A stretch of DNA of 54,020 bases, from the NCBI GenBank assembly GCA_030066085.1, contig JASJCI010000020.1, positions 1 through 54,020 of the forward strand, read 5' to 3'. A program made the translations under genes and the position numbers. The notes below the pieces were generated by a model. That model did not search any database, was not told where the DNA came from, and saw only the letters and a program-made list of their open reading frames with translations. This stretch comes from Gammaproteobacteria bacterium. GTDB taxonomy: Bacteria > Pseudomonadota > Gammaproteobacteria > GCA-001735895. This document shows, in pieces, positions 1 through 54,020 of the stretch (within the stretch, counting starts at the first letter, position 1; each line of letters begins with the position of its first letter).

Positions 1-67
1 CCCCGCGGTCGCGCCGCGGGGTGACAGGTGTTAACAGTGCTGTAAAAAATTATTCCGGACAGCAGTG
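1..67 (+). mobile_element. right-hand part of a miniature inverted-repeat element (MITE)
   Basis: These bases match the last third of the complete element at 45031-45255 almost base for base, including the terminal inverted repeat ending in GGACAGCAGTG at 67. The flank at 68-77 (CGCGCCAGCG) is the same target half-site as at the other copies, with one change. The window starts at the edge of the element's internal hairpin, so the left part is missing here. Confidence 0.85.
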
Positions 68-2906: not shown

Positions 2907-2957
2907 GTCATCCCCGCGCAAGCGGGGATCTCTGCAAACCGGGGACGGACCCCGTTT
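2907..2957. repeat. REP-like palindrome plus GGGGACGGACCCC unit
   Basis: GTCATCCCCGCGCAAGCGGG begins a palindrome at 2907-2931 that is the intact, empty form of the site in which the 225-bp element sits elsewhere (45021-45265, 53880-, -77). It is followed at 2941-2957 by a GGGGACGGACCCC palindrome with a short T run. It lies between the convergent TonB receptor and DsrE-like genes and could end transcription in both directions. Confidence 0.75.
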
Positions 2958-44778: not shown

Positions 44779-45020
44779 CGGTTGTCCTCCGGTTGTAGCT
44801 ATGCGGTCCCCGGGCGGGGACCTGTTTCCCGAATCAATGTTATCTGCACCCGCGTATGGGCACTCTTTATTACTGCAGATCCAGGTTACGAAAGTATATC
44901 GAAATTCGGGAGACAGTATACCGAATGCCCAGATCCCGTCGTCATCCCCGCACACACTTCCGTCAGTCCCCATAACTTGCGTAATCCCCATGCCCCGTCA
45001 TCCCCATGCCCCGTCATCCC

Positions 45021-45030
45021 CGCGCAAGCG
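45021..45030 (+). repeat. left target-site duplication
   Basis: CGCGCAAGCG, identical to 45256-45265. The two together reconstruct the REP palindrome loop CCCCGCGCAAGCGGGGA, which is seen empty at 2912-2928. Confidence 0.8.
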
Positions 45031-45255
45031 CACTACTGTCCGGGATAATTTAAATGCCTGATCAAAAAACACTTTCAAAAACGATGTTTTGGTACGCTAA
45101 AGCCGCACTCCGACTTAATTCTCTACCTCTTGAGTTGTCATCCCGCGGCTCGACCGCGGGATCCAGAAAGCCTTGGCTCATCACTGGACCCCGCGGTCAA
45201 GCCGCGGGGTGACAGGTGTTAACAGTGCTGTAAAAAATTATTCCGGACAGCAGTG
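45031..45255 (+). mobile_element. complete 225-bp MITE
   Basis: Starts CACTACTGTCCGGGATAATT and ends in the inverted form CACTGCTGTCCGGAATAATT: 19 of the first 21 bases pair. Flanked by a perfect 10-bp direct repeat. Inside, two arms of 31 bases (45136-45166 and 45184-45214) form a large CCCGCGG-rich hairpin. No ORF, so it would need a transposase in trans; a 10-bp duplication fits IS4-like enzymes but the family is not identified. Confidence 0.85.
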
Positions 45256-45265
45256 CGCGCAAGCG
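45256..45265 (+). repeat. right target-site duplication
   Basis: CGCGCAAGCG, perfect copy of 45021-45030, followed by GGGGATCT, the second arm of the interrupted REP palindrome. Confidence 0.8.
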
Positions 45266-45556
45266 GGGATCTCCCCAGGCACGGGTGTTTAGTAAGATCC
45301 CCGCTGTTGCGGGGATGACGTCGAGCATGCAAACACCTGGCTACCACGACGTTAGAACTCCCCGCTTCGTGCGATCCCGGGACACCGGACCGTACTTGCG
45401 CGGTGATAACGGGAGTTGTGCCTATAACCGGCCGCTGTGAACCGGGAGCACCTGCCCCGCCAGATTAGACAACCCGCCCGATTCGGTTAATATCGATCGT
45501 TCGATGAATCAACGCAGGCTCACCCGAACTTCCGGTGAATTGCAGCGGGGGCTAAC

Positions 45557-45773: not shown

Positions 45774-45935
45774 ATTCGGGGACGTACCCCGTTTTAATCC
45801 CCCGTTTTAATCTCCGGGACATACCACGCTTGCCTCCGGATATGCCCCGTCGTTGCAAGGAGCGGAGCGACTCCAAGCCCTTTGAATATTCGGGGACGTA
45901 CCCCGTTTTTTTCGGGGACGTACCCTGTTTTTTCA
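45774..45935. repeat. array of GGGGACGTACCCC palindromes
   Basis: Three clear units (about 45775-45795, 45889-45910 and 45912-45933), each starting near TTCGGGGACGTACCCC and followed by a T run, plus degenerate ones (CGGGACATACCACG). They fill the space between the small CDS (plus) and nadE (minus) and likely end transcription from both sides. Confidence 0.75.
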
Positions 45936-53824: not shown

Positions 53825-53879
53825 GTGGACAATACCCGGATCTGACCCCGGTTCTGTTTTCAGTGTTCCTCGTCATTCC

Positions 53880-53889
53880 CGCGCAAGCG
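53880..53889 (+). repeat. left target-site copy of the terminal MITE
   Basis: CGCGCAAGCG after GTCATTCC, again the loop of the GTCATCCCC REP palindrome; the matching right copy lies outside the window. Confidence 0.7.
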
Positions 53890-54020
53890 CACTACTGTCC
53901 GGGATATTTTAAACGCCTGATCAAAAACACTTTTAAAAACGATGTTTTGGTACGCTAAAGCCGTACTCCGACTTAATTCTCTACCTCTTGAGTTGTCATC
54001 CCGCGGCTCGACCGCGGGAT
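53890..54020 (+). mobile_element. left-hand part of a MITE copy at the window end
   Basis: 131 bases that match 45031-45162 with a handful of changes (for example GGGATATTTTAAAC in place of GGGATAATTTAAAT). Same orientation and same target as the complete copy. The window ends at the apex of the internal hairpin. Confidence 0.85.

Follow-up and report, generated by a model that had tools for sequence, protein, structure and literature searches.

Introduction

Several ISs are known to insert specifically into REP sequences, and one of them, ISRm22, belongs to the IS4 family (PMC1525189). All copies of this Sinorhizobium meliloti element lie in REPs at the axis of the palindrome, and 6-bp repeats were reported for it (PMC1525189); it has been placed in subgroup IS4Sa, where the conservation of its target arms was remarked upon (PMC2266710). 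The elements of the present study resemble ISRm22 in belonging to the IS4 family and in choosing the axis of the REP palindrome. Compared by description, however, ISRm22 is an autonomous IS of one species with 6-bp repeats, whereas we deal here with a 225-bp non-autonomous element that has 10-bp duplications, belongs to a broad group and carries REPs as cargo. Another IS4-family member of S. meliloti, ISRm16, shares about 42% transposase identity, CAGGGCTGTCCGGGG ends and CC^N9^GG targets with the elements described below but is autonomous, duplicates 9 bp and has a relaxed target; two of its six copies read are located in a Rhizobium intergenic palindrome. IS1397, ISKpn1, IS621, ISPpu9/10, ISPa11 and ISPsy8 are REP-specific, too (PMC1525189; PMC11208160 for the IS110-type elements), yet these autonomous elements of the IS3 and IS110 families cut with another geometry and hit GTAG-type or enterobacterial REPs.

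CGTC-tagged REPs, with their GTCAT tag outside an 8-bp stem and their arrangement in HH/TT pairs (PMC3733652), make up the target of the present element as well as its internal pair. They 'apparently lack a dedicated transposase', and neither a MITE cargo nor IS4-family targets were described for them (PMC3733652). REPINs consist of an inverted REP pair, as is found inside our MITE, but have no outer terminal inverted repeats (TIRs) or duplication and are tied to GTAG REPs and RAYTs (PMC3116915). MITEs in general, for example MITEAba12, are short and non-autonomous and have the ends and the duplication of a full IS (PMC6382973; review PMC10969869), as is the case here; MITEAba12, in contrast, enters 9-bp AT-rich sites and has no target motif (PMC6382973). 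The accessible part of the review reports an intergenic preference of MITEs and does not mention a REP-specific one (PMC10969869). Our literature search, from whose reach most subscription journals were excluded, returned no study of a REP-specific MITE or of a DUF4372 IS, and nothing earlier on a REP-targeting group of such breadth or on MITEs that carry their own target. ISs that hit REPs are thus known; a REP-specific MITE, a broad group of such elements and target-carrying MITEs seem to be new, with priority unproven.

Results

A 225-bp MITE splits a REP palindrome

The window, i.e. the whole stretch of DNA analysed, is one complete contig of 54,020 bp (C5) from the draft genome of an uncultured proteobacterium (4.39 Mb, 85 contigs). 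It has the following features:

45031..45255, + strand: complete MITE, 225 bp, 95-100% identical to about 40 further complete or contig-truncated copies
45031..45051, + strand: left TIR CACTACTGTCCGGGATAATTT, matching the right end at 19 of 21 positions
45235..45255, - strand: right TIR, CACTGCTGTCCGGAATAATTT as read on the - strand
45021..45030, no strand: left copy of the target site duplication, CGCGCAAGCG
45256..45265, no strand: right copy of the duplication, CGCGCAAGCG
45013..45020, + strand: left arm of the split target REP, GTCATCCC, with an intact counterpart at 2907-2934
45266..45273, + strand: right arm of the split target REP, GGGATCTC
45293..45320, - strand: intact partner REP of the target pair (AGATCCCCGCTGTTGCGGGGATGACG region), which forms with the restored REP a pair of about 75 bp that is repeated in the genome
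45137..45166, + strand: internal CGTC-type REP 1 (GTCATCCCGCGGCTCGACCGCGGGATCCAG)
45184..45213, - strand: internal CGTC-type REP 2, in inverted orientation to REP 1
1..67, + strand: right part of a contig-truncated copy, its duplication (68-77) reading CGCGCCAGCG
53890..54020, + strand: left part of a contig-truncated copy, its duplication at 53880-53889
2907..2934, + strand: empty, intact REP of the target type

A preliminary description of the window had claimed a 225-bp element with 21-bp ends (19 matches), a perfect 10-bp duplication and an empty palindrome at 2912-2928, and all three were found again, the element at 45031-45255, CGCGCAAGCG on both of its flanks and the intact palindrome reading CCCCGCGCAAGCGGGGA. 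The two partial copies, said to abut the same target, indeed do so, with an exchange of A to C at position 73; both are truncated because the contig is broken inside the repeat. The element is short and noncoding, lacking open frames of 80 aa or more, and multicopy (45 ends in the genome), and the duplication is perfect in two and matches at 9 of 10 positions in one of the three complete copies that could be read. It also shares its ends with a putative autonomous partner, as the first 18 bp of the right TIR are identical to both ends of a 1282-bp IS of a sister species. In these features the element agrees with a MITE.

Other repeats were noticed as well. The palindromic motif GGGGACGTACCCC occurs at 45880-45930 and in several contig flanks (C48, C66), in several intergenic regions. 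Another repeated motif, near GGGGTCAGATCACAGTTTT / GATCTGACCCC, is found beside REP pairs (53832-53860; L063, around 110-175; L068, around 950-1000) and looks like a further short repeat family.

All ends with sufficient flank lie in the same REP half-site

We detected 45 MITE ends in the genome (21 left and 24 right). All 44 ends with at least 22 nt of flanking sequence adjoin the dyad half-site of a CGTC-type REP, with rare base changes. The target has the form CCC^CGC-NNNN-GCG^GGG with a 10-bp duplication, the half-site being YCC^CGC-NNNN-GCG. The specificity proposed from the three insertions of the window therefore holds genome-wide, and not one of the 44 ends that could be examined has an unrelated flank. 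Two further matches of the end motif (C35:25944 and C50:21204) had neither a REP flank nor a mate and were discarded as chance hits. The genome still contains 148 intact REP sites of the strict form, compared to 2 for the reversed control pattern, and the MITE is inserted in both orientations relative to the GTCAT tag of the REP (12 vs 8 and 9 vs 11). Insertion of the 225-bp MITE into REP dyads is hence real and extends well beyond the window.

Four complete copies are present. The duplication is perfect in those on C5 and C78; in the C39 copy it matches at 9 of 10 positions and the right REP arm is damaged, and the C57 copy runs into a contig end. The right flank of the C39 copy (L002, around 1490-1730) has no REP arm any more, possibly as a result of a later rearrangement. 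Since the copies are 95-100% identical and several left and right ends are identical at different sites, the MITE probably spread in a recent burst. Approximately 39 of the 170 contig ends of the draft genome fall inside the MITE, the window itself starting and ending in copies, and such elements are the reason why the genome breaks into contigs at these positions.

Removal of the element and of one duplication from the window had been claimed to restore the palindrome. In fact a whole inverted REP pair of about 75 bp is regained (45013-45020 joined to 45256-45320). This joined site aligns across the junction with many intact REP pairs of the same genome (e.g. C41:12895, C31:5218, C19:43622) and also with REP pairs of sister species, and by this alignment we regard the matching pairs as related empty sites.

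A sister species has a full-length IS with the ends of the MITE

The end motif CACTRCTGTCCGGRATAW was searched in all 41 genomes of the order, which belong to one family. It proved to be abundant in G001, a sister species, with 58 matches on the forward and 45 on the reverse strand (control, 0), where it marks an IS of up to 1282 bp, here called IS-A, that is present in about 50 copies together with shorter deletion derivatives. Its ends read CACTGCTGTCCGGAATAA and share the 18-bp identity with the right end of the MITE; the likeness of the two elements is limited to these ends (about 18-20 bp). IS-A ends at the same REP position as the MITE in 98 of 101 cases. One of the remaining three ends lies in a REP site but is displaced by one base, and the other two stem from one insertion outside REPs that became split afterwards. 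With 44 of 44 MITE ends and 98 of 101 IS-A ends in REPs, both elements show the 'type 1 association' of REP-specific ISs (PMC1525189). A perfect 10-bp duplication was determined for 23 of 32 measured end pairs of IS-A. Most imperfect pairs have differing REP variants on the left and right and are explicable by recombination between copies.

The IS-A transposase matches DDE_Tnp_1 (E=1e-29) and DUF4372 (E=2e-22), scores 240 bits against NCBIfam IS4_1 (cut-off 115) and has conserved DDE residues and a conserved YREK motif. Of the features given for IS4Sa (PMC2266710), IS-A shows YREK, ends of the form CA------T (CACTGCTGT...), a length within 1150-1750 bp (1282 bp) and a duplication of 8-10 bp (10 bp), and it is a candidate member of this subgroup; an IS4Sa-annotated transposase shares just 27% identity with it over 66% of the query. 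G001 harbours a second sub-family of the IS4 family, IS-B (L237-L241, L245), which is 48% identical and has the ends CA(C/T)AGCTGTCCGGGGAAA. Seven of 12 IS-B ends are at the same REP position and one more is shifted by one base; its two non-REP insertions both have 10-bp duplications. Two groups of ISs thus share one landing site in G001, the preference of IS-B being overlapping but looser.

Family searches with DUF4372 and DDE_Tnp_1 as well as tblastn with the sister IS detected no such transposase in the window's own genome, and none of its contig ends has an IS interior behind the TIRs of the MITE. The autonomous partner is therefore either missing from this genome or hidden in unassembled DNA. 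The full-length IS that the preliminary description had suggested to look for exists in the sister species but not in the own assembly.

Related elements in other proteobacteria

An exact scan of genome contigs for YCCACTRCTGTCCGGRATA, independent of the G001 search, yielded 112 stretches, mostly from beta- and gammaproteobacteria. The genera include Rhizobacter, Rhodanobacter, Fulvimonas, Tahibacter, Massilia, Duganella, Ramlibacter, Lampropedia, Gallionella, Nitrosovibrio, Thiobacillus, Dasania, Budvicia and others. Judged by half-site bases that the scan had not fixed, the leading YC excepted, at least 101 of 120 scanned ends lie in CGTC-type REPs (e.g. GTCATTCCGGC-GAAG-GCC^). The scan required YC before the end, by which GCG-type sites were excluded and GC flanks favoured; ends in the same loci that escape this demand were by inspection in REPs in 8 of 9 cases. 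Other genera contain complete MITEs (267-359 bp) and ISs (1296-1310 bp) of the same geometry, both with 10-bp duplications. An unconstrained scan for the end motif in 369 genomes of the class was sparse and gave two matches outside the genus (L096, which has no REP, and L407, which has a REP-like half).

In a tree of 32 transposases every REP-targeting enzyme falls into a single branch (support 100/99). Also included are ISRm16, a copy from Reinekea whose target is unknown and one from Rhizobium; the latter carried the label 'other' when the tree was drawn and on reading turned out to be located in a REP (ATCCCAG^GGTCAGGCC^CTGGGAT, 9 bp). More distant DUF4372 ISs of the class have TGTCCGG-type ends but do not target REPs, and three measured pairs showed 9-bp duplications.

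Length of the duplication

The same TIRs are found in sister species at REPs with a 6-nt loop, where the duplication amounts to 12 bp; the two cases are a 309-bp element in G008 (L090, 1501-1809) and a 120-bp element in G011 (L091, 976-1095). Loops of 4 nt give 10 bp and loops of 6 nt give 12 bp, with the cuts 3 bp into each stem arm. At REPs with a 5-nt loop the duplication is 10 bp long in Nitrosovibrio (2+5+3) but 9 bp long in Rhizobium (2+5+2), so that a strict rule of 'duplication = loop + 6' was rejected. ISRm16 has 9-bp duplications at CC^N9^GG, sometimes in a palindrome.

Most of the MITE families examined carry REP pairs

The REP-like arms inside the element, already remarked upon in the first reading of the window, turned out to be an inverted pair of CGTC-type REPs (45137-45166 and 45184-45213) of a sub-family other than that of the target, and the layout recurs in unrelated genera. 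By a strict palindrome test, 7 of 11 MITE families examined have precisely two REPs, inverted in the same way. Two of the other four are a Fulvimonas MITE, which has REP halves with broken arms, and a Thiobacillus MITE with a long inverted pair that by eye resembles GTAG-type REPs. The density of REPs is 4.6 per kb in MITEs and 0.28 per kb in the surrounding DNA, a 16-fold difference. With its inverted pair the MITE agrees with a REPIN, but its REPs are of the CGTC rather than the GTAG type and it has TIRs and a 10-bp duplication. Pairs like the internal one are common in sister species, where they are free of MITE ends. At the start of contig C29 (L063, 1-76) a REP pair with the spacer of the MITE's internal pair is present without the left half of the MITE, its other side lying beyond the contig; it is possibly a released copy or a source copy of the internal pair.

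Discussion

The ends and the duplications make it very probable that the MITE is a non-autonomous DNA transposon that is moved in trans by an IS4-family transposase with DUF4372 and DDE domains and with the REP dyad as its target. Against this assumption stand the lack of such a transposase in the own assembly, the restriction of the likeness to IS-A to the ends, the small number of complete copies with readable duplications (only three, many copies being cut by contig ends) and a geometry that varies (9 bp in relatives, 12 bp at two REPs with 6-nt loops). REP halves flank every copy and could be taken, together with the core between them, for a larger repeat that is moved or copied in one piece. 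This is hardly credible, as the REP variants co-vary on both sides between copies (duplications CGCGCAAGCG, CGCGAAAGCG and CGCTTTCGCG), both orientations relative to the REP tag occur (12 vs 8, 9 vs 11), 148 intact REPs lack the core, the loop is perfectly duplicated and an IS with the same ends and an unrelated interior sits at the same bases. Insertion anywhere with survival only in REPs, that is, selection instead of targeting, would fit the intergenic position of REPs, in which insertions are expected to be mild; yet REP dyads amount to well below 0.1% of the genome (148 x 16 bp in 4.39 Mb), a far smaller share than that of other neutral intergenic DNA, and it is most improbable that without targeting this fraction would receive all MITE ends and 98 of 101 IS ends, each time at the same base. 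An unrelated transposase such as a RAYT might also be considered, given that the centre of the MITE is like a REP pair, that RAYTs move GTAG REP pairs and that this assembly is devoid of an IS4-family transposase. RAYTs, however, leave no duplication, and TIRs combined with a 10-bp duplication are the signature of DDE enzymes; together with the 18 bp shared with an IS4-family IS that hits the same target and with the full ISs of other genera (1296-1310 bp), which have the same ends at the same REP position, this makes a RAYT a very unlikely agent.

For mobilisation by the IS4-family enzyme the following sequence of events can be envisaged. The transposase would bind the CACTRCTGTCCGG ends, and the complex, being two-fold symmetric, would dock on the symmetric REP stem with its CC(C/G)..(C/G)GG arms. 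The two 3'-OH ends would then attack the two strands at positions 3 bp beyond the loop of the REP, one on either side, and the duplication would consist of the loop and 3 bp from each arm. Instead of this double-stranded symmetric sequence the transposase might read a hairpin or cruciform extruded by the REP, with the length of the duplication tracking the loop. Duplications of 10 bp at 4-nt loops and of 12 bp in two independent REPs with 6-nt loops, always cut 3 bp into the arms, would be in agreement with such a mechanism, as would the fact that between genera the sequence of the target REP differs and the stem-loop is kept. We nevertheless consider hairpin recognition unlikely: 5-nt loops lead to 10 bp (Nitrosovibrio) or 9 bp (Rhizobium), the 12-bp cases are just two, the non-REP insertions of IS-A and IS-B keep the 10-bp duplication, and ISRm16 enters CC^N9^GG sites that are no palindromes. 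The simplest reading is a recognition of C-rich and G-rich arms that face each other in inverted symmetry at a distance of about 9-10 bp. The relaxed sites of ISRm16 and IS-B have this form, and nowhere in these genomes is it found more often than in REP stems.

Since REPs are abundant, intergenic and singly non-essential, insertion into them may represent a safe-haven strategy. With the autonomous partner missing from this assembly, the MITE copies of the present genome may now be stranded, or they may depend on a rare or unassembled IS. As for the origin of the MITEs, ISs inserted in neighbouring REPs would enclose REPs, and an internal deletion would then produce the order TIR, REP pair, TIR. 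The centre of the MITE would accordingly be a captured REP pair, so that each transposition would copy REPs as well. At L361 (280/412) and L385 (5044/5136) two elements start at a distance of about 90-130 bp from each other, as adjacent or nested insertions in REP clusters, an arrangement that could create REP-carrying MITEs.

It is possible, albeit doubtful at present, that the IS4-family group and its MITEs form a dispersal system for CGTC-type REPs in which captured REP pairs add REPs with every jump. If this is true, the added REPs would serve as new landing sites and as seeds of free REP pairs, and a vehicle would be supplied for a REP superfamily that has none known. To our knowledge this is the first concrete candidate for the way in which CGTC-type REPs travel, the MITEs being the candidate vehicle. 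A MITE with a near-absolute, base-exact choice of target, together with its probable transposase, is present in culturable genera (Rhodanobacter, Massilia, Lampropedia, Budvicia), and in such hosts the way in which an ordinary DDE transposase chooses a palindromic target is directly testable.
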